DNA of 64,000 bases from Corallococcus sp. AS-1-6 (lineage in GTDB: Bacteria > Myxococcota > Myxococcia > Myxococcales > Myxococcaceae), in assembly GCF_020037015.1 (NCBI RefSeq), contig NZ_JAIQDE010000004.1, positions 62,001 through 126,000 of the forward strand. Direction: 5' to 3'. Position numbers and translations under genes: made by a program. Shown one piece after another: positions 37,129-49,879 of the stretch; position 1 is the stretch's first letter; each line of letters begins with the position of its first letter. The notes beneath the pieces are model-generated. The model saw nothing but the letters and a program-made list of their open reading frames with translations. It made no database searches and was not told where the DNA came from.

Positions 37129-37317
37129 ATGGCGGCGGGCTCCGGCCGCGAGAGGAAGGAGAACGCCAAGGTCGCCGCCTTCGCGGCCGTGGGCGCGATG
37201 GAGCGGCTGTGCGAGGTGCTCCACGTCGAGGCCGGGCACGGCGACATGCCGTGGACGAAGTGCTCCCGCTGCCTGGAGTTGATGGGCGTCAAGGCGATGG
37301 AGGTGGTCCGTGGGTAG
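37129..37317 (+). CDS. small prophage protein (62 aa)
   Basis: The product MAAGSGRERKENAKVAAFAA... is mainly helical with WTKCSRCLELMG, a CxxC pair that could bind zinc or be incidental. The start is either the ATG at 37,129 or a GTG three bases earlier. Its TAG overlaps the GTG start of the next gene. The 165 bp between the attachment site and this gene show no other frame. Confidence 0.6.
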   Translation: MAAGSGRERKENAKVAAFAAVGAMERLCEVLHVEAGHGDMPWTKCSRCLELMGVKAMEVVRG

Positions 37318-38023
37318 CCCGGCCCCCGTCGCGCCCGCGCCCGCCGTCCGCGAGCGGCCCATCCTCTTCTCCGCGCCGATGGTGAAGGCGCTCCTCGCCG
37401 GCCGGAAGACGGTCACGCGGCGGCTCGTCAAGGAGCGCCACTTCCGGCCGGAGTTCCACCGGAGGTGTAGCGCTATCGGAGTGGCGGCTGCGCTGCGCGA
37501 GTTGGCGGTGCTCCCATGTCCCTTCGGCCAGCCCGGGGACCGGCTCTGGGTCCGGGAGACGTGGAGCCCGGACCATCGCGACGTCTACCCTTGCTACGAC
37601 TACGTGTACGCGGCCGACGGAAGGGTGAGCGACACCGACCGCCGCGAGCACATCAACGCCTGCACAGAAGCGAAGCGGGAACTCGGTGAGCGCGACTTCG
37701 AATGCCTCGCCTGCGCGCGCTTCCGGTGGCGTCCCTCCATCCACATGCCGCGTCGGGCCTCGCGCCTGACGCTGGAGGTGGTGTCCGTCCGCGCCGAGCG
37801 GCTGCACGACATCACCGAGGAGGACGCGAAGGCGGAGGGTGCTAAGCCCATCGGCATCACCTTCCGGGATGAGGCACGCGGCACGCGCATCGTCCCGAGC
37901 CTCGGCGGCCCCTACCGCGACGGCTTCCGCATCCTCTGGGAGTCCATCAACGGCGCCGAGTCCTGGGACGTCAATCCCTGGGTCTGGCGCGTGGAGTTCT
38001 GCTTCCTGTCCGCCACGAAGTAG
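37310..38023 (+). CDS. phage ASCH-like protein
   Basis: Starting at GTG 37,310, the 237-residue protein has the layout of a widespread phage family: RPILFSAPMVKALLAGRKTVTRR, PCPFGQPGDRLWVRETW, WRPSIHMPRRASRLTLEVVSV, DITEEDAKAEG, and FRILWESING...SWDVNPWVWRVEF. The fold belongs to the ASCH/PUA-like group that binds nucleic acid or modified bases. The precise role in phages is unknown. It is first of the clear early genes. Confidence 0.75.
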   Translation: MGSPAPVAPAPAVRERPILFSAPMVKALLAGRKTVTRRLVKERHFRPEFHRRCSAIGVAAALRELAVLPCPFGQPGDRLWVRETWSPDHRDVYPCYDYVYAADGRVSDTDRREHINACTEAKRELGERDFECLACARFRWRPSIHMPRRASRLTLEVVSVRAERLHDITEEDAKAEGAKPIGITFRDEARGTRIVPSLGGPYRDGFRILWESINGAESWDVNPWVWRVEFCFLSATK

Positions 38024-38208
38024 CAGCACCATCACCACGCGCCTCGGCCCGGTGAGGGCCTGACGGCAGCACCCGCCTCCGGGCGGTCCCTCTGCTCCGG
38101 CAGTTGGAGCACGGCACGCAGTCCCCCGCGCGAGCGCAGCAGCAGCGCAGCCGGGTCTCCACCCCAGCCCGTCACAGGGCCGCGCCACGTGCGCGAGGGA
38201 GACGTGCC

Positions 38209-38583
38209 ATGTCGAGGAAGAGGGGCGCCCGCTCGGCGCCGCGCAGCACCAGCAGCACGACGGCAACCGAGGGCGTGGCGCTCGTCCGCGCCGCCTTCTA
38301 CGACGAACTGGCGAGGGCCGCGCACGACGTGTGCGACGCGCTCGGGGTGGAGGCCAAGTCACCGGGCCGCGACGCGATGACTCGCCTCCTTGAAGCGCAG
38401 GACGCGGTGGTCACGACCGAGGCCAGGAACGAAGCGGAGTTGAAGTCCCTCCGGCAGCAGCTCGCCACCGTGCAGGCCCTGGTGCGCGGCGCGGCCGAGG
38501 CCTTCGACGGCACTCCCACGGGCCAGGTGCTGGACGGGCTGCTGCTCCAGATGCAGGCCGTCACGAAGGGCGGTGCCCGGTGA
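38209..38583 (+). CDS. small helical prophage protein (124 aa)
   Basis: The ATG at 38,209 follows GAGGGAGACGTGCC. The N-terminus is Ser/Arg/Thr-rich; the rest is predicted helix with heptad-like leucines (AELKSLRQQLATVQALVRGAAEAFDG, VLDGLLLQMQAV), probably a short coiled coil. It overlaps the next gene by 4 bp (GTGA). No family was recognised. The 185 bp upstream (38,024-38,208) hold no gene. Confidence 0.6.
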   Translation: MSRKRGARSAPRSTSSTTATEGVALVRAAFYDELARAAHDVCDALGVEAKSPGRDAMTRLLEAQDAVVTTEARNEAELKSLRQQLATVQALVRGAAEAFDGTPTGQVLDGLLLQMQAVTKGGAR

Positions 38584-39425
38584 GCGGCACCGATACGGAG
38601 AAGCTGGCGGCCATCCGCGCGCGGCATGCCGCTGCGAGCCGGGGCCCGTGGCGCTGGTTCGGCTACCTGCGGACGCGCGAGGTGAGCCTGGAGGGAGGCC
38701 GCGACACCGTCATGGACTTCACTCGTTGGGGTATGTCCGGTGCGCAGCCGCGCTGGTCGGTGAAGGGGATCCTCGAAAAGCTGGCCGACCTCGTCGTGCC
38801 CGACACGACGCCGGGGCGCGGCCGCGTCACCGACATCAACCACCCGGACGCGCGCTTCATCGCGGCGTCTTGGGAGGACGTGCGGGACCTGCTCGGCATG
38901 GTGGATGCGCTCCAGCAGTCGCTGCGGGAGGAGCGCGAGGCGCGCGATGCCGACGGGAAGAACCTGGAGGGCAAGCTCGCGGAGTCGCTGGCGCGCATCA
39001 ACCAACTGACGCGCGAGCGCGACAGCGAGATGGAGGAGCGTTGGAAGGTGTCCGAGGTGAAGCGCCAGCAAGAGGCGCGCGCCGAGGCTGCCGAATCCCA
39101 GCGCGACGCCCTCCAGGCCTTCGCGGTGGCCTTCGCCGCCACCGCCGAGGCTGCCGTCGCCCACCACCGCCGGCCCAAGACGGGGATGCAGGTGTCCTTC
39201 CACGGCGACTTCGCGGGCGCCTCCCCGTCTGTGATTGGCCGCTTGGAGTGGTGGGCGAAGCGCGCTCGGGAGGCGCTGACCGCGGCAGCGACCGCCACCT
39301 GTGCCCCCGCGTCCGAGCGCGCGGAGTGGAGCACCGCCGAGGCTCCCACCACGCCCCAGCAGCACGGCTGCCCCATGGGCGACGTCTGCCCCGTCTGCGA
39401 TGAGCCGGAGGTGTCCCGTGGTTGA
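38580..39425 (+). CDS. phage protein with Ea22-like start and coiled coil
   Basis: The 281-residue protein (GTG start) opens EKLAAIRARHAAASRGPWRWFG, similar to the IRARxxAATPGPW opening of Ead/Ea22-like phage proteins. VTDINHPDARFIAASWEDVRDLL follows. Then come a coiled coil (about 110-175, REEREARDADGKNLEGKLAE) and a Cys cluster at the end (GCPMGDVCPVCDEPE). Role unknown; such genes sit in early accessory regions. Confidence 0.65.
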   Translation: MSGTDTEKLAAIRARHAAASRGPWRWFGYLRTREVSLEGGRDTVMDFTRWGMSGAQPRWSVKGILEKLADLVVPDTTPGRGRVTDINHPDARFIAASWEDVRDLLGMVDALQQSLREEREARDADGKNLEGKLAESLARINQLTRERDSEMEERWKVSEVKRQQEARAEAAESQRDALQAFAVAFAATAEAAVAHHRRPKTGMQVSFHGDFAGASPSVIGRLEWWAKRAREALTAAATATCAPASERAEWSTAEAPTTPQQHGCPMGDVCPVCDEPEVSRG

Positions 39426-41034
39426 GCCCTGTCGAATTGCTCTCGTAGGCTGCGGCAAGGCGAAGCTGAGGCACAGCGCCCCCGCGCGCGACCTCTACAC
39501 GGGCAACCTCTTCCGCGCGCACCTGGCCGAGGCCGAGGCCATGACGCCGCACGTCTACGTGCTGTCGGCCCTCCACGGCTTGCTCCCGCTGGACGAGAAG
39601 GTGGCGCCCTACGACGTCACCCTCCGCGGCATGCTGGACGAGAAGCGCGCTGCCTGGGGACGGCAGGTGGTGGACGCGCTCGTGCGCCTCTACCCGGCCG
39701 GTGCCGTTGAGCTCATCGTCTACGCGGGTCGTGCGTACGCGGAGCCCATCCAGGACGCGCTCGCAGCCGTGCCGCATGAAGGGTGGACGCTCGTGGAGCC
39801 GCTCAAGGGCGCCACCCAGGGCGCGCGCCTGCGCATCCTCGCGGAGGCGAGCCGGATGCGCGTGGCGGCGCGGGCTCCGCTGCGCCTGCCCGCGCTGGAG
39901 GTGGAGCAGCCCTCCGGCCGGCGCCTCTACCTCTTCGCGGTGGACGGCAAGCAGGTGCCCTCCTTCGCCACTGTATCTCGCGTGCGTCGCACCGAAGGCG
40001 TCCTGGAGGGCTACCAGCGCCCCGAGGTGCTCGCCCACGTGACGGCCATCCGCGAGTACATGGAGAGCGCGGGAGCCCTGGTGCCCAACGCCGTGGTTCT
40101 TGCCTTCGACTCGCGCGTGCGCTTCGAGGCGCTGCCCGGGGAAGGGGAGGGCGCCCGCCACGGGCACCTCGTCATCCCGCGCGCCACCGCGCCGGACGCA
40201 CCGGACGCTCCGGGCTTCATCGTGGACGGCCAGCAGCGCCTGGCCGCCGTGCGTGACGCGGCGGTGAGGGCCTTCCCGTTGGCGTGCACCGGCTTCGTCG
40301 CGGAGACGGTCGGCCAGCAGGCCGAGCAGTTCATCCTGGTCAACTCCACGAAGCCCCTACCCAAGGGGCTCATCCACGAACTGCTGCCCAGCACGACGGC
40401 GGCGCTGCCAGCAGCACTGGAGCGCAAGCGCCTGCCGGCGCAGATCCTGGCCCGCCTCAACCTGGATGAGGGCAGCAGTCTGCGCGGCCTCGTCATCACC
40501 CAGACGTGCCCGCGCTCCACCGGGAAGACTGGAGGGAAGCACTTCAGCGCCGTCATCAAGGACACGTCCCTGCTGTCCGCGCTGGAGGACTCCCTCGCGG
40601 ACGGCACCCTCTACGACTTGGAGCGCACGGGCGCGGGCGTCGACGCCATGGTGTCGCGCGTGTCCGCGTGGTGGGCCGCCGTCGCCAGCACCTGGCCGGA
40701 CGCCTGGGCCCGGCAGCCCAAGGAGTCGCGCCTTTCGCACGGCGCGGGGGTGCGCGCCCTATCTCTTCTCATGGACGCCGCCTGCCACTTCCTCGCGCAG
40801 GAGGGCAACGCCACGCCCATCCAGGGCGACTTCGAGCGCGAGCTCGCGCTGGTGCGCGACGCCTGCGCCTGGATGTCCGGCACCTGGGCTTTCCCCTCCG
40901 GCACGCGCCGGTGGAACGAGTTGCAGAACACCCCCAAGGAGGTGGCCCTTCTCGCGCAGCACCTGGGCGCCATCTACCGCGAGCGCCGCGCGGCGAAACC
41001 CCAGCGGCGCACCCGAAAGGCTGGTGCCGTATGA
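39418..41034 (+). CDS. DUF6884-like domain fused to a DGQHR (DndB-like) domain
   Basis: From GTG 39,418 the protein has 538 residues. Residues 1-140 (RIALVGCGKAKL, ARDLYTGNLFRAHLAEAEA, VYVLSALHGLLPLDEKV, GAVELIVYAGRAYAEPI) match the DUF6884/YaaA-like pattern. Residues about 160-538 contain GFIVDGQQRLAAVRDA (about 264-279), the signature of DGQHR proteins, then FILVNSTKPLPKGLIHELLP. DGQHR proteins (DndB, DpdB) are linked to phosphorothioate or 7-deazaguanine DNA modification. Next to two methyltransferase genes, a DNA-modification role is plausible but not shown. Confidence 0.7.
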   Translation: MVEPCRIALVGCGKAKLRHSAPARDLYTGNLFRAHLAEAEAMTPHVYVLSALHGLLPLDEKVAPYDVTLRGMLDEKRAAWGRQVVDALVRLYPAGAVELIVYAGRAYAEPIQDALAAVPHEGWTLVEPLKGATQGARLRILAEASRMRVAARAPLRLPALEVEQPSGRRLYLFAVDGKQVPSFATVSRVRRTEGVLEGYQRPEVLAHVTAIREYMESAGALVPNAVVLAFDSRVRFEALPGEGEGARHGHLVIPRATAPDAPDAPGFIVDGQQRLAAVRDAAVRAFPLACTGFVAETVGQQAEQFILVNSTKPLPKGLIHELLPSTTAALPAALERKRLPAQILARLNLDEGSSLRGLVITQTCPRSTGKTGGKHFSAVIKDTSLLSALEDSLADGTLYDLERTGAGVDAMVSRVSAWWAAVASTWPDAWARQPKESRLSHGAGVRALSLLMDAACHFLAQEGNATPIQGDFERELALVRDACAWMSGTWAFPSGTRRWNELQNTPKEVALLAQHLGAIYRERRAAKPQRRTRKAGAV

Positions 41035-41348
41035 GCTGCCCCAAGCCCCCGCGCACGGACCGGGGCGGTGCCCCGAACGTCGTCACCACCGAGCGCCAGG
41101 ACGACGTCCTCGCCTTCATCGCGCAGCACCTGCAGGAGCGCGGCTTCGCGCCCACCAGCCGGGACATCAGCGAGCACTTCGGCTGGGCCAGTCATACGGC
41201 CGCCGTCTGTCACCTGGACGCGCTCAAGGCCAAGCACCTCGTCACCTGGGTGCCGGACGTGGCGCGCACCCTCCAGCTCACCGAGGCGGGACGGGACATC
41301 GTCGCGCGCCGGCAGGCCCAGCAGCAGGCGGTGGCGCGCCATGCGTGA
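41031..41348 (+). CDS. LexA-type winged-helix protein without peptidase domain
   Basis: The 105-residue product contains TERQDDVLAFIAQHLQERGF, APTSRDISEHFGWASHTA and HLDALKAKHLV, closely following the LexA N-terminal DNA-binding domain (TxRQxxVLxFI...PTxREI...HLxAL). It ends before any Ser-Lys autopeptidase domain. It could compete with host LexA or act as a stand-alone phage regulator. The start ATG overlaps the previous stop (ATGA) and begins with the early start word ATGAGCTGC. Confidence 0.75.
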   Translation: MSCPKPPRTDRGGAPNVVTTERQDDVLAFIAQHLQERGFAPTSRDISEHFGWASHTAAVCHLDALKAKHLVTWVPDVARTLQLTEAGRDIVARRQAQQQAVARHA

Positions 41349-41565
41349 CGCCGCCCTCCTCATCACCGCGGTGGCGCTCTTCGCCGCCGCGTACCTGGTG
41401 CGCGGCTCCGCGTGGTGGTGGCTCGCCGCTGCCGCCTACGTGGCATGCGTCACCGCCTTCTGGCTGCGCGTCTGGCGTCGCCGTCCTCAGCCCGAGTCCA
41501 CCCCGGCCGCACTCCACCTGCGGCTCGTCGTCGACAACACCCGCTGCACCCGGAGCCGTCCATGA
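41341..41565 (+). CDS. small two-helix membrane protein (74 aa)
   Basis: Two hydrophobic stretches (about 3-20 ALLITAVALFAAAYLV and 24-44 WWWLAAAAYVACVTAFWL) are followed by a basic cytoplasmic-type tail (RVWRRRP). It overlaps both neighbours. No family was recognised; it could be an early membrane-acting accessory protein. Confidence 0.6.
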   Translation: MRDAALLITAVALFAAAYLVRGSAWWWLAAAAYVACVTAFWLRVWRRRPQPESTPAALHLRLVVDNTRCTRSRP

Positions 41566-43523
41566 GCTGCATTCAGGAGCACGAGTTCACCGTCGGGTAC
41601 CTCTTCTGCGGCGCGGGTGTGGGTGCATACGGCGCGGACTGCGCTCAGGTGGAGGTGGATGGTCACCGCGCCACCGTCCGCAACGTGGGCGGCATCGACT
41701 TCGAGCAGGAGCGCTGCGACACCTTCACGAAACTGACGGGCGCGAAGTCCCTCTGCGCGGACATCGGCCGCATGCGCCCGCGCGAGCTGCGCGCCTTCTT
41801 CGGCGAGCGCGCGCCCTACTTCATGAAGTGGAGCCCGCCGTGCAAGGGAGCCAGCCGGCTCACCTCGAAGGAGCGCGCCGCGACGAAGAAGTACCAGGAC
41901 ATGAACCGTCTCGCGGTGAAGGCCGCGCGCAAGGTGCTGGCCGCGTGGCAGGGCGACGAGCGGCCCGTCATGGTCGTCATTGAGAACGTGCCGGCGTATC
42001 GGCACCGCTGCCCGGAGAACCTCGCGGAGGTGCTGCGCCTGGGCCGCCGCGCGGGCTACGAGGTGTCCGTCGTTGAGCACGACCTGGGCGAGGAAGCCGG
42101 GCTTGCCCAGCACCGCACGCGCCTCACCATCGGCTGGCGCGACACGAAGCGCTGCCCGGTGCCGGTGGCGATGCCCAGCAAGAAGCGCCTGCGCGGCGTG
42201 GGGGAGGTGCTCGGGCCGCTGCCCTTCCCGGACGACCCGCGCGCGGGGAAGCACCACAAGCTGCCACGCATCGAGTGGCTGAACGCGGTGCGTTTGGCGC
42301 TCGTCCCTCCGGGCGGGGACTGGAGGGACCTGCCGCCCCGCGGCGGCGTGGTGGCGTGGCTGGAGGCGCGCGGGCTGTGGCCGGCCGGCGTGGACACGGG
42401 CCCCTTCCGCGACCTGGTGGAGGAGCAGCTCGGCACGCCCGTGCAGCAGGGCCAGCAGCGCCGCGAGGTGCATCGTCGGCACCCGGTGCAGGCCTGGGCA
42501 GAGCCGGCGCCGACGGTGGCCGGACCCGGGGGCGCGGGGTTGTGCGCGGTCGAGGACCCGCGTCCCCTGGATGCGCTCGGGCTCGGGCATTCCCCGCGAC
42601 GCGGCGCGGAGGGCGTGACGGCCTGGGACGGGCCGGCGCCCACGGTGCGCGGTGTGGCCCGGCATGACAACGGCGGAGCGGCCGTGGCCGACCCACGCCC
42701 CCTGGACGGCATCGCCATGGGGACGGACAACCCGCTGCGCCACCGGAACAAGTACGCGGTGACGGGATGGGGCAGCCCGTCGGGCACGGTGACGGCCGCC
42801 TCGCGTCCCGGCAGCGGTGCCCCGTCAGTGGCGGACCAGCGCGTCCTGGAGCTCGTCGGCCTGGGCCAGACGGCCACGGGCGCGGGCACCTACGCGGGCC
42901 GCCCCGGCCTCTTCGGCGTCATGGACGAGCGCGCCCCGGCGCCCACGGTCTCCGGCTCCGCGGCGGTGAGCAGCAGCAACACGCCGGCCGCGCTCGCGGA
43001 CTCGCGCGCGGCGGCGGCGCTCGACGCGCTGGGCGTCGGGCCCACCTGCCGCAACGGCTTCTACGGCGTGCTGGAGTGGGACGCGCCCGCGCGCACCGTG
43101 ACGGGCAGCCTCCAGGTGGACAACGGCTCCGCAGCCATCGCGGACCCGCGCCCCGCGCCACGGCCCGTCATCAGCATCCACCTGGCGCTGGCGCTGCTCG
43201 CGGAGGGCTGGGAGCCGCCGAAGGGAGCGCTGGCGCCGGCTATCCTCTCCCCGCTGTCGGGCTGCTGGCACCGGCCACTCACGACGCTGGAGTTGGCCGT
43301 CCTCCAGGGACTGCCGCCGGTGGTGGATGGGCAGCCGCTGGAGTTCGTCTCCTCCAGCGACGCGCGCGTGCGCAGCATGGTGGGCGACGGCATCCCTGCG
43401 GGTGGTGCCCTCGTGTGGCAGGAGGAGCAACTCCTCGCCGCGCTCAAGTCGAAGCTGGGCCACGGCTGGTCGCTGGTGAGCGACTTCTGGTTCCGCCCGG
43501 GCTTTGAGGGGTACGCGGCATGA
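41562..43523 (+). CDS. DNA C5-cytosine methyltransferase with repeated target-region modules
   Basis: The 653-residue enzyme has FCGAGVG near the N-terminus, catalytic Cys94 in SPPCKGASR, ENV at 141-143 and QHRTR at 183-187, in the C5-methyltransferase order. The region after residue 305 contains five copies of a unit reading W-x-x-P-A-P-T-V...A-D-P-R (starting near 311, 354, 402, 453 and 505), each about 45-50 residues apart. The closing motif LTTLELAVLQGLPP...SMVGDGIPAG lies at the end. Typical phage enzymes are 300-450 residues, so the repeats account for the length. It probably protects phage DNA from host restriction. Confidence 0.85.
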   Translation: MSCIQEHEFTVGYLFCGAGVGAYGADCAQVEVDGHRATVRNVGGIDFEQERCDTFTKLTGAKSLCADIGRMRPRELRAFFGERAPYFMKWSPPCKGASRLTSKERAATKKYQDMNRLAVKAARKVLAAWQGDERPVMVVIENVPAYRHRCPENLAEVLRLGRRAGYEVSVVEHDLGEEAGLAQHRTRLTIGWRDTKRCPVPVAMPSKKRLRGVGEVLGPLPFPDDPRAGKHHKLPRIEWLNAVRLALVPPGGDWRDLPPRGGVVAWLEARGLWPAGVDTGPFRDLVEEQLGTPVQQGQQRREVHRRHPVQAWAEPAPTVAGPGGAGLCAVEDPRPLDALGLGHSPRRGAEGVTAWDGPAPTVRGVARHDNGGAAVADPRPLDGIAMGTDNPLRHRNKYAVTGWGSPSGTVTAASRPGSGAPSVADQRVLELVGLGQTATGAGTYAGRPGLFGVMDERAPAPTVSGSAAVSSSNTPAALADSRAAAALDALGVGPTCRNGFYGVLEWDAPARTVTGSLQVDNGSAAIADPRPAPRPVISIHLALALLAEGWEPPKGALAPAILSPLSGCWHRPLTTLELAVLQGLPPVVDGQPLEFVSSSDARVRSMVGDGIPAGGALVWQEEQLLAALKSKLGHGWSLVSDFWFRPGFEGYAA

Positions 43524-44440
43524 CCTGCCCGCCCCCCACCATCGACAGCGTCCTCTCAGGGCGCGCGGACTGGGCGCTAGTCCACGGCCGCGCCGAGGAC
43601 ATTCTCCCGCACCTGCCCCGGCGCGCGGTGGCTCACGTCCTGACGGATCCGCCGTACTCGCCTGCGGTTCACCGGCTCCAGCGACGGATGAAGCTCGGCT
43701 CCGGCAGCAAGAACTCCGCGACCGGCACCCATCGCGTCGCGTTTGCGCCCCTGGGGTTCGACGCCCTCACACCGGAGCTCCGCCGCCTGTGCGGCGTGCA
43801 CCTCCCCCGCGTGGCCCAGCGGTGGCTCGTCGTGAAGTGCGACGCCGAAGGCCAGGCCGCGTGGCAGGCGGAACTGGAGCGCGCGGGGGCCCGCCACGTC
43901 CGGGTGGGCGTCTGGCACAAGCTGGGCGCCCAGCCGCAGTTGTCCGGGGACCGGCCCGCCGTTGGGCACGAGGCCTTCGAGGTGGCGCACGTCCGCGGGG
44001 AGCGCCTGCGCTGGAATGGCGGCGGCCACCACGCCGTCTGGACGCATCCCATCGCTACCGGGGAGCGGATCCACACCACCCAGACGCCCGTGTCCCTCTG
44101 GATGGAGTTGGTGGCCCAGTTCACGGAGCCGGGCGAGCTCATCCTCGACCCCTTCGCCGGCAGTGGCAGCCTGGGCGTCGCCTGCCTCCGCCTGGGCCGC
44201 CGCTACCTGGGCGTCGAGATGCAGGCCCACTACGCCGACGCGGCCCGGGGCTGGCTGGCGGCGGAGGCGCAGGGGCTGTCGCTGAGCGCGGCCCGCTCCG
44301 GGCAGATGGGACTCTTTGCCGGCGCCACGGACGTCCATGACGTGTCCGGCGGACGTCCGCCGGACGTCCGCCGGACGCTCGCGGACGCGAAGCGGGACGT
44401 CACCAACCACCGGGGCGCTGCCCCCCACGAGGAGGCGTAG
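43520..44440 (+). CDS. DNA N6-adenine/N4-cytosine methyltransferase
   Basis: The 306-residue protein has motif IV DPPY (43-46, VLTDPPYSPAV) and motif I later, in ILDPFAGSGSLGVACLRLGRRYLGVE (about 208-232). This is the beta-class order. The middle has WHKLGAQPQLSGDRPAVGHE. The start word is ATGACCTGC, overlapping the previous stop. The last about 40 residues (after GLFAG) are low-complexity and encode part of the GGACGTCC array. Amino versus cytosine specificity cannot be read. Confidence 0.85.
   Translation: MTCPPPTIDSVLSGRADWALVHGRAEDILPHLPRRAVAHVLTDPPYSPAVHRLQRRMKLGSGSKNSATGTHRVAFAPLGFDALTPELRRLCGVHLPRVAQRWLVVKCDAEGQAAWQAELERAGARHVRVGVWHKLGAQPQLSGDRPAVGHEAFEVAHVRGERLRWNGGGHHAVWTHPIATGERIHTTQTPVSLWMELVAQFTEPGELILDPFAGSGSLGVACLRLGRRYLGVEMQAHYADAARGWLAAEAQGLSLSAARSGQMGLFAGATDVHDVSGGRPPDVRRTLADAKRDVTNHRGAAPHEEA
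44329..44377. repeat. GGACGTCC array, left cluster (possible replication iterons)
   Basis: The palindrome GGACGTCC begins at 44,329, 44,351 and 44,362, with a degenerate copy at 44,373. The spacings are 22, 11 and 11 bp, so the sites share one face of the helix. The period is not a multiple of three, so it is not a by-product of a repeated peptide. It ends 66 bp before the replication gene. Confidence 0.55.
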
Positions 44441-44442
44441 CC

Positions 44443-45345
44443 GTGGCCTGCCTACCCTGGTTCAAGTTGCCCACCGCGTTGCCGTCGGACCCGCGCGTCC
44501 GGGCCCTGGAGCGCGCCGTCGGCCCGGCTGCCCTCGCCTACCTCGTTCGCCTCCGCGCCTGGCTGGCCTCGTACGCCCCCAGCGGCAGGTACTCCGGGCC
44601 CGAGCCCGTCCACGCCCTGGAGCGCGGGTGCGAATGGGGCGGCGAGGAGGGGGCCCTCGTGGAAGCCCTCGTACATGCTGGGCTTCTTGCTCGCGAAGGC
44701 GAGGCCCTCGTCGACTTGGAGTGGGCCGAGGAGCAGGCGGTCCACGCAGAGCGGGCCGCCTCCGAGGCCGCCCGGAAGCGGGCTGCTCGCGCTGCGAAGA
44801 AGGCTGCGGCGGACTCCGCGGCCCGGGCCAACGTCCCCGCCGCGTCCGCAGGACGTCCGGCGGACGTCCTGCCGCAGTCCCACGGACGTCCCACCGCTGT
44901 CCCGCCTGAGAAGGAGATAGAGAAGGAGAGGGAGACAGAGAAGAAGCAACCCCCTCACGCGCGCGAGGGCGAGCAGGCGCAGTCGCTGGGCCAGCAGGAT
45001 CTACTGCCCCACGAGCCCCCGCCCAGCACGGAGCCGGCGCTGGGGGATCTGCTCGACGCCGACTTCCAGGCGCTGCGCGGGGCCGAGTACCGGCGGGACC
45101 GGAGCGACCCGGCGGCCATGGGCGAGCTCCTCGCCCGGGGTGCCCCGGCGGAGATCCGCCGCCGGTGGCGCATCGGCATCGCCGTCACCGGGTACGGGCG
45201 CTGCTCGAAGTGGGCCGATCTCGTGCGCTTCTGGAACGACCACGCGACGGCGCCGCCTGAGCGCTCTGGGGCCCGGCCCGGGAAGCCCCCCGCCCGCTCC
45301 CTCAACCGTGACGACTACCGCGAAGGCCCCGTGGAGGCCCTGTGA
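44443..45345 (+). CDS. phage replication organiser-like protein
   Basis: The 300-residue protein begins MACLPWFKLPTALPSDPRVRALERAVG and continues with a winged-helix-like segment (LVEALVHAGLLAREGEALVDLEWAEEQ), as in phage replisome organisers with DUF4373-like N-termini. A disordered Ala/Lys/Pro/Glu-rich linker (about 105-190) follows. The C-terminal part reads DADFQALRGAEYRRDR and WRIGIAVTGYGRCSKWADLVRFW. It precedes a DnaC-like helicase-loader gene with a 4-bp overlap, the usual phage replication pair. The linker DNA contains the second GGACGTCC cluster, recalling phage origins inside initiator genes. Confidence 0.7.
   Translation: MACLPWFKLPTALPSDPRVRALERAVGPAALAYLVRLRAWLASYAPSGRYSGPEPVHALERGCEWGGEEGALVEALVHAGLLAREGEALVDLEWAEEQAVHAERAASEAARKRAARAAKKAAADSAARANVPAASAGRPADVLPQSHGRPTAVPPEKEIEKERETEKKQPPHAREGEQAQSLGQQDLLPHEPPPSTEPALGDLLDADFQALRGAEYRRDRSDPAAMGELLARGAPAEIRRRWRIGIAVTGYGRCSKWADLVRFWNDHATAPPERSGARPGKPPARSLNRDDYREGPVEAL
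44851..44891. repeat. GGACGTCC array, right cluster (possible replication iterons)
   Basis: GGACGTCC begins at 44,851, 44,862 and 44,884 (spacings 11 and 22 bp), a mirror image of the 22/11 spacing of the left cluster at 44,329-44,369. It lies inside the disordered linker of the replication organiser gene. Confidence 0.55.
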
Positions 45346-46139
45346 AGACGCCTGGAGAAATCATCGAGACCGCCCCCGGACGCTGGGGAGCGCCGCGCCT
45401 GGCGGAGTTGCTGCGCCGCGGGCTGGCCAACGCACGGAAGCGCACGCCGGAGGAACTGGCGGCGCTCGAGCGCGAGTGGCAGCAGCGCGAAGTGGAGGAG
45501 CGCCGGGCGCACGAGGCCGCCCAGGCGCAGACGTGGCCCATGCACCTCCGCCTGTGCGGCGCCCCGGTGGAGGCGGTGGCGGCCCTCACCGGCAAGGCGC
45601 CCCTGGCGACACCGGCGCTGGAGACGGCCCGCCAGGCGCTGAAGGAGCAGTTGCGCACGGTGCTGCTGTCCGGCTTCACGGGCGCCGGGAAGACGGTGGG
45701 CGCGTGCGAGCTCTTCCGCGCGGCGACGCGGGTGGAGACGCGCACCGGCCAGCGCCTGCCGGAGTGGGACTACAGCGCGGGCCTCTTCCTGCGCTGGACG
45801 CAGCTCAAGCGCGTCAGCGACTACCACGCCGAGGACCGGGCGCTGTACCACCGCGCGTGCACGGTGCGCGTCCTGGTACTCGACGACCTGGGCGGCATGC
45901 CGGGGGAGGCGCTGGGGGCCCGGCACCGCGAGCTGTTGGAGGAACTCGCCGACCGCCGGGACAGGCCTGGGTTGGTGACGGGCTACACCACCAACCTCTC
46001 CGTCCACGCTGTCGACGGAGCGCCGAGCGCCTTCCGCGCCTGGGCGGGGGAGCGCGTGGTGTCGCGCATGTGCCGCCGGGGGACGTACGTGCTGCGTGAC
46101 TGCGGCACCCGGGACCTGCGGAAGGAAGGTGCCCCGTGA
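45342..46139 (+). CDS. DnaC/IstB-like ATPase, probable helicase loader
   Basis: The 265-residue protein has Walker A GFTGAGKT (about 110-117), Walker B VLVLDDLGG (about 175-183), a sensor-like TTN in VTGYTTNLS, and a terminal arginine-rich region (ERVVSRMCRRGTYV). The N-terminal about 90 residues are helical and Arg/Glu-rich, suiting a helicase-contact domain. The GTG start overlaps the upstream stop. It is expected to load the host DnaB helicase at the prophage origin. Confidence 0.82.
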   Translation: MKTPGEIIETAPGRWGAPRLAELLRRGLANARKRTPEELAALEREWQQREVEERRAHEAAQAQTWPMHLRLCGAPVEAVAALTGKAPLATPALETARQALKEQLRTVLLSGFTGAGKTVGACELFRAATRVETRTGQRLPEWDYSAGLFLRWTQLKRVSDYHAEDRALYHRACTVRVLVLDDLGGMPGEALGARHRELLEELADRRDRPGLVTGYTTNLSVHAVDGAPSAFRAWAGERVVSRMCRRGTYVLRDCGTRDLRKEGAP

Positions 46140-46492
46140 GCTGCAAGCCGAAGCGGCCCGAGGAGCGCGTGCGCTTCTTCCGGCGTGGCGCCACCACCGC
46201 GGAGGAGTTCCGCGAGCTGCGCACGCGGGCGATGGCGCGGGTGGCGCGCGGAGAGTCCGTCCGTGAAGTTGCCCGGGACATGAGCGTGTCCGAGGACACC
46301 ATCAGCCAGTGGCTGTCCCGCGCGCGGAAGGGCCGCGGCCCCGGGCCCTACGTGCCGTCGCAGCGCCTTGCCTTCCACGGGCCCTGCGCGGAGCCCGGAT
46401 GCGGGCGCCGGTGCGCCAGCAAGCACGGGTACTGCCAGAAGCACGCGAGCGTCTACGTGTACCGGGCCACCGGACAGGGGAGGGCGTCTTGA
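46136..46492 (+). CDS. HTH plus zinc-finger prophage protein (118 aa)
   Basis: A helix-turn-helix (MARVARGESVREVARDMSVS...ISQWLSRARKG, about 31-65) is followed by a Cys/His finger (CAEPGCGRRCASKHGYCQKH). The same finger pattern occurs twice in the protein at 47,901-48,593. Its start word is GTGAGCTGC, overlapping the previous stop. It probably binds DNA as an early regulator. Confidence 0.65.
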   Translation: MSCKPKRPEERVRFFRRGATTAEEFRELRTRAMARVARGESVREVARDMSVSEDTISQWLSRARKGRGPGPYVPSQRLAFHGPCAEPGCGRRCASKHGYCQKHASVYVYRATGQGRAS

Positions 46493-46956
46493 GCTCCGTC
46501 CTCCTGGCCTGCGGCAGCAGCGGCCTCCATTTGGGCCACCTCCCGGTGTTGCGCGCGTACATGCGGCGCTTCTCGGGGCACCCGGGGATGGGGCTCATCC
46601 ACGGCGCTGGAGACCCGCGCAAGGTGGACGAGCCCGAGGCCTTAGGCGCGGACCGGTTGTGGGAAGTGGCGGCCGCCGTCGAGTGGCCCTGGTTCGACGT
46701 CCTGGCGGTGTCGCGCTACCCCGCGGACTGGAAGGGGCAGGGGCACCGCGCGGGCCCGCTGCGCAACGAGGCGATGCGCGATGCCCTCCGCGCGCTCGCC
46801 GCCCAGGGCCAGCGCGTGGGCTGGGTGGCCGCGCACACGGACCCGGGGCTGGGGCGTGGCACGCGGCACATGGTCAGCCTGTGCCGGGCCGAGGGGTGGC
46901 CGGGACGGGCGCTGATTCTCGCCGCCGACGGGCGGCTGCTTGAGGAGGTGCGGTGA
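46489..46956 (+). CDS. SLOG/DUF2493-like nucleotide-binding protein
   Basis: The TTG at 46,489 (GGGGAGGG upstream) overlaps the previous stop and gives 155 residues: LACGSSGLH..., LIHGAGDPRKVDEPEALGADRLWEVAAAV, YPADWKGQGHRAGPLRNEAMRDAL. The HGxxxGADxLA...ADW...GPxRNxxM series is that of DUF2493/YspA-type SLOG proteins. These bind nucleotides and are common in phages with unknown purpose. The cleaner translation here needs the TTG, since upstream codons belong to the preceding gene. Confidence 0.72.
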   Translation: MSSVLLACGSSGLHLGHLPVLRAYMRRFSGHPGMGLIHGAGDPRKVDEPEALGADRLWEVAAAVEWPWFDVLAVSRYPADWKGQGHRAGPLRNEAMRDALRALAAQGQRVGWVAAHTDPGLGRGTRHMVSLCRAEGWPGRALILAADGRLLEEVR

Positions 46957-47330
46957 TGTCGACGTGCAGGGAGAGGATGACGAAGTGCCGCCGCTGCGGT
47001 TCCGTGATGCCGCAGGCGCGCATGGGTGCTCCGAGGAAGTGGTGCGGCAAGGCGTGCGCGGCGGCAGCGGAGACGCTGGGGCTGACTGGGCACGTCTGCA
47101 TGGACGACCCGGGCCCGAAGTACGACGTGCCTCTGGACGGGTTCGACTTCCAGGCGAGCGAGCGGCGCCGTGAGGAGCGCATCGCCCGCGTCATCGCCGA
47201 GGGCGTGCCGCTGGCGGCGCTGCGCGAGCGCTTCGACTGCTCGGAGCAGGTCCTCCGCCGCGTGGCCGAACTCCGCGGGCTCACCATCCACACCGGACTC
47301 GCCGGGGGCATCCCGGTGCTGGGGGCGTGA
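46953..47330 (+). CDS. zinc-ribbon plus HTH prophage protein
   Basis: The start is the GTG at 46,953 or, equally, the next ATG. The protein starts MSTCRERMTKCRRCGSVMPQA with WCGKAC following, a four-Cys ribbon. The C-terminus has a helix-turn-helix: RIARVIAEGVPLAALRERFD...VLRRVAELRG. That C-terminal unit is similar to the end of the protein at 47,901-48,593. It is probably DNA-binding. Confidence 0.62.
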   Translation: MMSTCRERMTKCRRCGSVMPQARMGAPRKWCGKACAAAAETLGLTGHVCMDDPGPKYDVPLDGFDFQASERRREERIARVIAEGVPLAALRERFDCSEQVLRRVAELRGLTIHTGLAGGIPVLGA

Positions 47331-47331
47331 C

Positions 47332-47904
47332 ATGCGCCACGCTGCGAACCGAGACGCCTGCGAGGGCGAGGTGGTGAAGGCGCTCCAGGCCGAAGGCTGG
47401 GGCGTCTGGAAGCTCTCCGCGAAGGACTTCCCGGACCTGCTGTGCGTCAGGAGCGGGCAGGTGCTGCTGGTGGAGTGCAAGAAGCTCGGCGGGGCGCTGC
47501 GCCCTGGCCAGGCGAAGCTGCACGCCGCGCTGCACGCGCTGGGCTTCCTCGTGGGCGTGGCCGGGGATGCCGTGGAGGCGCGGTCGGCCAGCGTCGGCGC
47601 TCCCGTCCGCACCTACCTCACGATGCCGGTGGAGGAGCGCGGCACCCGCGGGCCCCGTGGCGTCCGGCTGGCGGGCGGGGCCGTCCGGGCGAAGCGTGGA
47701 AGCCGGCGCACGGCGCCGCCTGGGCGGGCCCTGGACGTTCCAGGGCTCCCATCCCCTGGCCCAGGCGCGCCCGAAGCGATGGCGGCCCATCCACGGCCGC
47801 CACGCGCGAAGTCTGCCGGGGTGTCCCGGCAGCCGAAGTCCACCCAGAAGGACTGGAAGTCCCTGGCGACACCCGCCAGCTACCCAGCGAAGGAGGAGCC
47901 GTGA
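47332..47904 (+). CDS. VRR-NUC-like nuclease with disordered tail
   Basis: The first about 90 residues (EGEVVKALQAEGWGVWKLSA, DFPDLLCVRSGQVLLVECKK, LRPGQAKLHAALHALGF) have the PD-(D/E)XK layout of VRR-NUC nucleases, with Glu, Asp, Glu and Lys in place. Many phages encode such enzymes for resolving replication or recombination intermediates. The last about 100 residues are Pro/Arg/Gly-rich and look disordered. Its stop overlaps the next GTG. Confidence 0.75.
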   Translation: MRHAANRDACEGEVVKALQAEGWGVWKLSAKDFPDLLCVRSGQVLLVECKKLGGALRPGQAKLHAALHALGFLVGVAGDAVEARSASVGAPVRTYLTMPVEERGTRGPRGVRLAGGAVRAKRGSRRTAPPGRALDVPGLPSPGPGAPEAMAAHPRPPRAKSAGVSRQPKSTQKDWKSLATPASYPAKEEP

Positions 47905-48593
47905 GCTGCATCGAAGGCAGGAAGCCGTGCAGGGTGCCGGGCTGCGACCGTGAGTCCCGGACCCGGGGGTTGTGCGTCGCCCACGAGCAGCGCGAGCGCC
48001 GCGGGAAGCCCCTGGACGGCCCCATCCGCGAACTGAAGCGGCGTCAGCGTGCGCACACCACCCAGAAGGCGGAGTCGCTGTCCGACGCGTGCCGGCTGTC
48101 CGGGTGTGGCCGGCCGAAGTGGCGGAAGGAGCTCTGCCGCGCGCACTACGAGCGGCAGCGGCAGGACCCCGGGAACTGGAGCGGCCCCGTCCGCGAGTAC
48201 GGCACCATGGTGTACGCAGGTGACTTCGTGGCGCCGCAGGAGCAGGTGCAGGCCGTGGTGGACGAGGCGAAGCGCCGCGGCGTCTCCAGGAGCTTCGTTA
48301 TGCGCGAGGCCCTGGAGGAGTGGTTCCAGGCCCGGAAGGCACCGACGGCGAAGCTGCCCCGGTACGCCCGCGAGCACGACGACGGCCTCCTGGGCCCGGA
48401 GGAGCCCGAGCTCGGCATGACGCCGGACGCGGCCCGGGCCCGCGCCGACGCCATCATCCGCCGCGAGTACGCCGAGGGGGTGCCGCTGTCCGCGCTGGAG
48501 GAGCGCTTCGGCGCGCGGGCGGGGGAAGTCGTCCGCGACATGCGCCGCCCGGGCACCCGCGACGAGCGCCTTCCCTTCGGGATGCCGGCATAG
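47901..48593 (+). CDS. prophage regulator with two zinc fingers, RHH-like helix and HTH
   Basis: The 230-residue protein has tandem fingers CRVPGCDRESRTRGLCVAH and CRLSGCGRPKWRKELCRAH. A ribbon-helix-helix-like segment follows (VQAVVDEAKRRGVSRSFVMREALEEW), and a C-terminal helix-turn-helix (IIRREYAEGVPLSALEERFG). The last unit is shared with the protein at 46,953-47,330. Combining three DNA-binding units is unusual; a transcriptional role in the early-to-late switch is possible but inferred. Confidence 0.62.
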   Translation: MSCIEGRKPCRVPGCDRESRTRGLCVAHEQRERRGKPLDGPIRELKRRQRAHTTQKAESLSDACRLSGCGRPKWRKELCRAHYERQRQDPGNWSGPVREYGTMVYAGDFVAPQEQVQAVVDEAKRRGVSRSFVMREALEEWFQARKAPTAKLPRYAREHDDGLLGPEEPELGMTPDAARARADAIIRREYAEGVPLSALEERFGARAGEVVRDMRRPGTRDERLPFGMPA

Positions 48594-48595
48594 CC

Positions 48596-49234
48596 ATGGC
48601 CTGCCCAGCCCAACAGCGGCCCGACGGGCCCCTCACCACGGAGCGCCAGGCGCTGGCCCGGCAGTGGATGCGGTACGCGCGCGGCGCCGCGCGCCGCTAC
48701 TGCTTCGGCCGGCCCCGGCTGCTGGGACACCTGCAGGACCTGGAGGCCGCCGCCCTCCTGGGCCTCGTTGTCGCCGCTCAGCGCTGGCAGCCCGAGCGCA
48801 GCGGCTTCTACGCCTGTGCCCGCTGGTGGGTGCAGGCCGCGCTTCGCACCTACGACAGGCGGGGCTCGCGGGTTGTCCCGCTGTCGCAGACGGCCACGCA
48901 CGGCGAGGCGCGAGAGGTGCCCCTTGAAACACGCCACGGGGGCGCGACGGAGGACCACGAGCGCCTCGACGAGCGCGTTGACGCCCGGCTCCACGGGCAG
49001 GCGTTGCTGGACCGCGTCACGCCTGAGGTGGAGTCCCGGCTGCGCGTGGCCGGCGGCCGGGGCGAGGGGCCTCGCCGTGCGGTGCAGGCGCTGCTGGCGG
49101 TGGTGCTGGACGGCACGTCCGTCGGCGACTTCGCGGAGCAGCGCGGGCTCCAGCGCCAGGGCGTCTACGTCGCGCTCAAGAAGGCCGGGGCCGCCTTCGA
49201 GTCCTGGGCGGCCGAAGTCCGCGGGGAGGCGTAG
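48596..49234 (+). CDS. phage sigma-70-family sigma factor
   Basis: The 212-residue protein carries a region-2-like block (LLGHLQDLEAAALLGLVVAAQRWQPE, then FYACARWWVQAALRTYDRRGS, where WWVQAAL is the -10-recognition helix style). A region-4-like helix-turn-helix closes it (VVLDGTSVGDFAEQRGLQRQGVYVALKKAG). It lacks sigma region 1. It is the last large early gene before the lysis/structural region, a suitable place for a late-gene sigma. The start is ATGGCCTGC at 48,596. Confidence 0.78.
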   Translation: MACPAQQRPDGPLTTERQALARQWMRYARGAARRYCFGRPRLLGHLQDLEAAALLGLVVAAQRWQPERSGFYACARWWVQAALRTYDRRGSRVVPLSQTATHGEAREVPLETRHGGATEDHERLDERVDARLHGQALLDRVTPEVESRLRVAGGRGEGPRRAVQALLAVVLDGTSVGDFAEQRGLQRQGVYVALKKAGAAFESWAAEVRGEA

Positions 49235-49280
49235 CCGTGGCCACGGAACTTCCGGAATACCAACGTCGCAGGAGGATGGG

Positions 49281-49832
49281 ATGCGCGCTCCGAAGTGCGT
49301 GACGAGAGATGAGGCGGGCCGCGTGGTTTTCACGTGCGCGTGCGGCACTTCGTTTGCGAGGATAGGAACGGAGAAGCGCTGTCGACGATGTCGAATGGCG
49401 GGTCCGGCGACGCGCAAAGAGAGAGCAGATTGGGCGGCCCATGAAGTCGAGGCAGCAAATCGCGATCTCAGGGATGCGCGCTCTCTTCCATTCGGGCAAC
49501 TCTTGCGAGCCTTCCGCCTGCGCGCGCAGAAGTCACAGGAGTTGGTTTCTGAGGCGATGGACATCCACCCCCATCATGTCTCGCTTATGGAGTCTGGTAA
49601 GCGCAGGCCGTCCATCGAACGCGTCGGTCAAATCAAGGACGTGCTGGGGCTTTCCCCTGATGAAGTCTCCCTTCTGGTAGACGCTGCTGCTCGGGCCAGA
49701 AAGCAGTTCCGGCTCAAGGCTGGGCTGAGTCGCGAGCATGACGTCCTGGCCGTCCGCCTCCTGCGCACCTGGGACTCGCTGACGCGAGACGAAGTCCAGG
49801 CGCTGCTGAGGGTGCTCGGGGGCGCGGTATGA
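49281..49832 (+). CDS. XRE-type HTH regulator with N-terminal zinc ribbon
   Basis: The ATG at 49,281 has GGAGGATGGG before it. A Cys ribbon (FTCACGTSF...RCRRCRMAG, about 17-40) is followed by a Cro/CI-type HTH (LLRAFRLRAQKSQELVSEAMDIHPHHVSLMESGKRRPS). A helical C-terminus follows. No peptidase domain is present. The gene has lower GC than its neighbours, hinting at a separate origin. It could be a lysogeny or late regulator. Confidence 0.75.
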   Translation: MRAPKCVTRDEAGRVVFTCACGTSFARIGTEKRCRRCRMAGPATRKERADWAAHEVEAANRDLRDARSLPFGQLLRAFRLRAQKSQELVSEAMDIHPHHVSLMESGKRRPSIERVGQIKDVLGLSPDEVSLLVDAAARARKQFRLKAGLSREHDVLAVRLLRTWDSLTRDEVQALLRVLGGAV

Positions 49833-49879
49833 CCTGCCCGGCACCGGCGCGCACCTGCAGCACGACTGCATACCCGTGA
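49829..49879 (+). CDS. possible 16-aa peptide with early start word
   Basis: ATGACCTGC overlaps the HTH-gene stop (ATGA) and opens a frame MTCPAPARTCSTTAYP. It may be a truncated remnant of an early gene whose start word survives, as the transcription direction changes right after it. Confidence 0.3.
   Translation: MTCPAPARTCSTTAYP

Follow-up and report, generated by a model that had tools for sequence, protein, structure and literature searches.

Why should the early genes of one prophage operon, whose products are of the most varied kinds, begin with the same few residues? The question is raised by the window (the whole stretch of 64,000 nucleotides that was analyzed), which comes from a 9.5 Mb Myxococcaceae genome. 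Its early set is mixed, with a LexA-type HTH protein, two DNA methyltransferases, a replication initiator, and HTH, zinc-finger/HNH-like and sigma-like proteins, and, with homologues of Mx8 p14, p17, p19, p20 and p23 in unchanged order, it belongs to the Mx8-like (Myxoctovirus) early gene pool. In the list below, the tag is a start of the form Met-[Ser/Thr/Ala/Pro]-(one optional residue)-Cys, with Cys at residue 3 or residue 4.

41031..41348, + strand: LexA-type HTH gene, MSC (ATG AGC TGC, 41031-41039); LexA_DNA_bind 2e-15
41342..41565, + strand: early gene of the same operon, untagged and membrane-like (MRDAALLI...)
41562..43523, + strand: C5-cytosine DNA methyltransferase gene, MSC
43520..44440, + strand: N4/N6 DNA methyltransferase gene, MTC
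44443..45345, + strand: replication initiation protein gene, MAC (GTG GCC TGC)
45342..46139, + strand: DnaC-like helicase loader gene, untagged (MKTPGE)
46136..46492, + strand: HTH protein gene, MSC (GTG AGC TGC)
46489..46956, + strand: early gene, untagged here (MSSVLLACGSSGL) and tagged in relatives (MTCRRALLACGASGL, MTACARLALLACGSSGL)
46956..47330, + strand: zinc-ribbon-like gene with the residue-4 form, ATGTCGACGTGC, Met-Ser-Thr-Cys (ATG TCG ACG TGC)
47901..48593, + strand: zinc-finger/HNH-like gene, MSC
48596..49234, + strand: sigma-70 region 2-like gene (weak match), MAC (ATG GCC TGC)
49829..49879, + strand: 16-codon frame MTCPAPARTCSTTAYP; it overlaps the stop codon of the HTH gene before it and comes directly after the early operon

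The early operon and the word at its gene starts

The first-pass annotation had described eight of these starts as copies of one nucleotide word, RTGRSCTGC. All eight were recovered, on the + strand and each exactly at a start codon, and the word is matched 21 times on both strands of the window (8.5 expected; largest shuffle 18). As a full description of the feature it proved too narrow, since it misses the residue-4 gene at 46956, which had been overlooked. Part of the word is also imposed by the arrangement of the genes: the A at +4 is forced, because six starts (41031, 41562, 43520, 46136, 47901 and 49829) are 4-nt stop/start overlaps (RTGA). The other two, 44443 and 48596, lie 2 nt after a TAG stop (TAGCC[GA]TGG).

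Among the 16 early genes with curated starts (37,310-49,234), seven carry Cys3, and an eighth, at 46956, is a residue-4 form (MSTC). Given the host rate of 0.8%, seven or more would arise with a probability of 2e-11; a rate of 3% would still give 2e-7. The late genes of the window had been said to lack the feature, as do indeed those for the portal (57420), the protease (58865) and the major head protein (59876). The 16-codon frame MTCPAPARTCSTTAYP carries the tag but shows no sign of being a gene: it has no counterpart in relatives, and nearby prophages diverge there. It is possibly a vestige, or the start of a deleted gene.

Relatives of the listed genes give a first view of how the tag behaves. 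In the LexA-like family the Cys3 column is kept in 15 of 16 relatives, ahead of a variable, gapped tail, and relatives of the C5-methyltransferase begin MSC in six of eight cases, MTSATHHEF and MKHVFTIGY also occurring. The Mx9 relative of the replication initiation protein begins MACMPWYK; the HTH protein at 46136 has a relative beginning MSCKPKRP in one prophage region (L099) and clusters with Mx8 p21 (MTCNRQP). The sigma-70 region 2-like family has an Mx9 member annotated as a sigma70 factor, and all five relatives of the DnaC-like helicase loader are untagged.

Three further observations concern this genome. Between its conserved motifs the C5-methyltransferase gene has a long mid-section (42480-43170) of degenerate repeats (units ~VADPRPLD...GxG...APTV), which may represent several target-recognition units. 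A palindromic repeat (C)GGACGTCC, with the 11-bp unit GTCCGCCGGAC, is clustered at 44328-44377 and 44843-44903, that is at the end of a methyltransferase gene and within the replication initiator gene; eight of its 11 matches in the window fall in these two clusters (2 expected in the whole window), which may form an iteron-type origin. Finally, a second prophage region of the same genome (~244,500-266,500 of contig C1) has its own tagged genes, encoding a methyltransferase (MSCITTTPRIF), a LexA-like protein (MSCRPPPENG) and proteins beginning MSCIRFEVP, MTCIAGVV and MACPLPTA.

Conservation at codons 3 and 4

What is conserved at these starts is a residue, encoded at the codon level. TGY occurs at +7 in 16.4% of genes and at +10 in 7.7% (0.8% and 0.2% in the host), and TGY out of frame is no more frequent than in the host. 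For Cys the enrichment is 18-fold at residue 3 and reaches 26-fold at residue 4, and no other residue comes near that degree. Cys is not enriched at codon 5, is hardly enriched at codon 2 and is near background at residues 5-16; nor is Trp enriched at residue 3, as would be expected were TG at +7 selected. Codon choice is free: codon 2 at tags is ACG, ACC, ACT, ACA, AGC, AGT, GCC, GCT, CCC, CCG or AAC, and codon 3 is TGC or TGT in a ratio (31:9) that compares with 604:122 elsewhere in the same phages.

The word could have been a recombination joint, a regulator-binding word or a start-site word used in module shuffling, as had been proposed at first, and within the window all eight copies do fit nine bases placed at module boundaries. 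Elsewhere, however, TGT also serves as codon 3, and codon 2 may be ACG, ACA, ACT, AGT, GCT, CCC, CCG or AAC; nor does the word survive in the residue-4 form, where TGY is displaced by exactly one codon. Upstream nucleotides are alike at tagged and untagged starts, with no sharing beyond the Shine-Dalgarno region, up- or downstream. Frame-independent conservation of nucleotides, as of a DNA or RNA start word, was thus not found, and we regard a DNA-level origin as highly improbable. Conservation was found at the level of residues, across unrelated families, as in an N-terminal linear protein motif. General richness in Cys was considered and rejected, since internal Cys content is equal in tagged and untagged early genes and residues 5-16 are near background.

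Residue 2 is restricted as well. In the annotated phages, 39 of 40 tagged genes have Ser, Thr, Ala or Pro there, as against 129 of 216 untagged ones (p 3e-7), and our called gene set agrees; in the residue-4 form it is one of these four in 47 of 54 cases. When genes are divided according to the forced A at +4, the preference is significant in both halves. A residue 2 of this kind is compatible with removal of the initiator Met; Gly and Val permit it too but are avoided, so that the preference goes beyond what Met removal alone explains. Pro at residue 3 would hinder this removal, and the eight residue-4 forms of 54 that have it count against Met removal in those forms. Of the explanations offered in the first-pass annotation, it is selection for Cys near the N-terminus that the data support, through Cys at residue 3 or 4, synonymous variation, a restricted residue 2, retention amid diverged flanks, and absence from host genes and from homologues elsewhere.

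A translational signal inside the coding start had been suggested too. Its nucleotide-level version is excluded by the data above, and its codon-level version stays as the main rival: through a Cys as third or fourth codon, early elongation would depend on the supply of Cys-tRNA, or on the nascent fMet-X-Cys peptide, and early genes would be turned down jointly under cysteine shortage or late in infection. The tag does lie within the window of codons 3-5 that governs processivity in early elongation in E. coli (PMC6920384), a hungry codon promotes drop-off (PMC10192219), and mycobacteria have Cys-responsive attenuators in short ORFs (Canestrari et al. 2020, as cited in PMC9094748). The tag is also concentrated in one early operon, and structural genes are poor in Cys (0.5-0.8% versus 2.1% in the early arms). 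Against this, Cys is not enriched at codon 5 and scarcely so at codon 2, Cys codon choice at the tag is ordinary, and the strong preference for Ser, Thr, Ala or Pro at residue 2 is not expected from a tRNA gate. Moreover, early genes would be sensitive to Cys whether or not they carry the tag, because they are Cys-rich throughout (2.10% with the tag, 2.15% without). A gate at which any early Cys codon would serve, whatever its neighbors, is not what was found; this weakens its simple form and leaves one that depends on the nascent peptide unaffected. Overall, we think a translational gate unlikely.

Families, phages and hosts

The motif is specific to one group of phages. In deposited annotations Cys3 is found in 15 of 86 CDS of Mx8, 13 of 90 of Mx9 (first 50 kb) and 12 of 96 of Mx4, and in none of 68 of a Mycobacterium phage related via one methyltransferase. 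It is present in 66 of 469 genes called in 20 fetched Myxococcaceae prophage regions; for the host, with three genomes sampled, the count is 5 of 645 genes. Rates in prophage early regions are 13.5% for Cys3 and 8.3% for Cys4, against 0.8% and 0.2% in the host; across Mx8, Mx9, Mx4 and most of the 20 prophage regions, they are 13-16% and 3.5-8%. The possibility that Cys3 is as common in host genes had been named as one that would overturn the claim, and the host rate of 0.8% speaks for a real feature. Because our own gene caller is crude (on Mx8, 39 of 57 stops and 31 starts were identical), the main numbers were redone on deposited annotation and with an annotation-free junction test, based on RTGA overlaps with a ribosome-binding site and both flanking frames open. 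In this test Cys3 and Cys4 reach 20% and 15% in the prophage regions and 20% and 2.4% in Mx4, Mx8 and Mx9. Host DNA gives 1.2% and 3.1%, and ~80 other phage loci give 1.2% and 0%. The flank of one E. coli phage record (L046) proved to hold toxin genes and was set aside.

Phages of the same bacterial family can lack the tag. It is missing from the 26 genes looked at in the lytic phage Mx1 and from three prophage regions in which homologues are present (L112, L116 and L117), and a fourth, L115, has a single residue-4 case. A host-wide rule is thereby rejected, and the tag belongs to the phage lineage and not to the host. The prophage regions L099-L118 also contain a recurrent conserved family without the tag, with the core GRRDYQQDAV (11 loci), which by eye resembles PP2C-type phosphatases. 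In another phage, Mycobacterium phage CCUG48898T-2, many short early genes begin Met-Ser/Thr-Asp/Glu, a different N-terminal bias, suggesting that phage groups may own separate N-terminal preferences.

Clustering gave 409 protein families, with the tag present in about 59. Of these, 26 contain untagged members as well, and 13 combine the residue-3 with the residue-4 form. With one member sampled per family, Cys is found at 9.7% at residue 3 versus ~2% further in. Of ordered pairs with 25-45% identity, 62% keep the tag, while residues 5-14 match in 29% and other Cys in 32%; above 45% identity it is kept in 72-73%. Retention rises little with identity, so the tag turns over but is restored, and the ready loss among orthologues implies that it is not essential to each protein. 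Could the starts descend from one cassette that hitch-hiked between genes, or agree by chance? The A at +4, which comes automatically with stop/start overlaps, would fit such an account. However, repeated gain, loss and shift of the tag across so many sequence families, its retention above that of flanking residues at low identity and the 2e-11 obtained for the window alone leave it hardly any probability, and the first-pass view that common descent does not explain the pattern is upheld. Neither common ancestry nor a common nucleotide cassette was found among the tagged families.

Homologues elsewhere, another comparison on which the claim had been made to depend, lack the tag: this holds for about 100 proteins of three tagged families in other phages. 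In other phages the ~70 relatives of Mx8 Mox start M-x-PYYxDDxVTLYHGD with no Cys3 or Cys4, the sole positive being a mis-set start, and the tag of Mx8 Mox is a two-residue insertion (MACRPYYQ against M--KPYYQ in a Mycobacterium phage). Among PAPS-reductase-like relatives, 26 are untagged (MSAADEIK and others) and the sole tagged one (L274, MSACPSPEL) lies on a contig of 72% GC with other tags. For RusA, all seven non-myxobacterial relatives are untagged. A plain protein search of IMG/VR for closer relatives returned few loci.

Within the tagged phages, the tag is concentrated in the early replication and regulation operon and practically absent from structural genes. It is carried by 84 of 193 genes (44%) within 7.5 kb after the LexA-like gene, 45 of 111 further downstream and 7 of 100 upstream; by none of 14 structural genes in Mx8 and 28 in Mx4, and by one of 17 in Mx9, a small annotated ORF. 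Membrane-like proteins are seldom tagged (4/169 versus 79/531). The Cys might serve each protein separately, as a metal ligand, a redox switch or a cross-link site, and several tagged proteins are zinc-finger-like in an early proteome that is Cys-rich. Yet methyltransferases, LexA-type HTH proteins, MazG, dUTPase and PAPS-reductase-like proteins are tagged with no common chemistry, after residue 6 there is no other Cys in five of 47 tagged genes, same-fold homologues elsewhere are untagged, and the distance from tag to domain varies, the tag lying outside the conserved domain in the families examined. Such per-protein chemistry seems to us improbable.

A putative reader, and known systems

We favor, with a little better than even confidence, a protein-level N-terminal motif, (M)-[STAP]-(x)-Cys, that is under selection on early phage proteins and read in trans. 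It would have been acquired repeatedly, and kept by selection, in this group of Myxococcaceae temperate phages. At the predicted gene starts the initiator Met would be removed after the small residue 2, and one common putative factor would recognize in trans the [STAP]-(x)-Cys thus uncovered at the tip of a flexible tail. AlphaFold models agree with this in part: in the LexA-like protein the tag caps a low-confidence tail, and in Mox it lies in a short coil ahead of the first strand. The first residues of Mox are modeled with high confidence beside that strand, so the picture of a flexible tail does not fit all proteins.

Since phages with and without the tag share a host genus, the common factor may be encoded by the phages. 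Comparing the families of tagged and untagged phages for such a reader yielded no clear candidate, since families common to the tagged phages are often tagged themselves or also present in untagged phages. That the phages encode or recruit one putative reader of the exposed residues, controlling the lifetime or location of much of the early proteome, is a tentative proposal in which we have less than even confidence. With one reader, the motif would act as an operon-wide protein tag, acquired by new genes on entering the module. Control of the lifetime or placement of early proteins, such as a turnover signal by which they would be cleared at the programme switch, is our leading guess at the effect, and a rather doubtful one.

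Phage early genes are usually viewed as unrelated functions loosely grouped together. That dozens of families have independently acquired one N-terminal residue, missing outside the group, would mean that something in the infected cell treats them as one class, and identifying its reader would bring to light a general step of control during phage infection. In practice, the tag is a sequence mark for early genes, mostly of unknown function, in a poorly studied group of phages. No prior description was found in the limited library of open-access papers that we searched, and a signal common to unrelated early proteins is apparently so far undescribed.

Bacterial N-degrons (ClpS and the N-end rule, ClpX N-motifs) resemble the proposed tag in being short N-terminal signals that act in trans, and a short life is common among the early regulators of phages, as with the unstable lambda O, N and CII. 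To our knowledge, no bacterial degron consists of a small residue, an optional residue and Cys, and none has been described as common to many unrelated early proteins. One short signal is placed on unrelated phage proteins in the T4 capsid-targeting sequence and in jumbo-phage nuclear import; the Myxococcaceae tag differs in its 3-4 residues ending in Cys, in marking early cytosolic proteins and in belonging to temperate phages of roughly 50-57 kb. The early elongation ramp involves the same codon positions, but its motifs are Lys/Asn-Tyr/Ile, cysteine being unmentioned in that paper (PMC6920384), whereas the tag is a single residue selected in one class of genes. Lastly, in the mycobacterial attenuators, as far as their citation in PMC9094748 describes them, Cys codons at the start of an operon could sense cysteine, as could the codons of the tag; those attenuators are separate poly-Cys leader ORFs, whereas the tag is one Cys in each cistron's own N-terminus.
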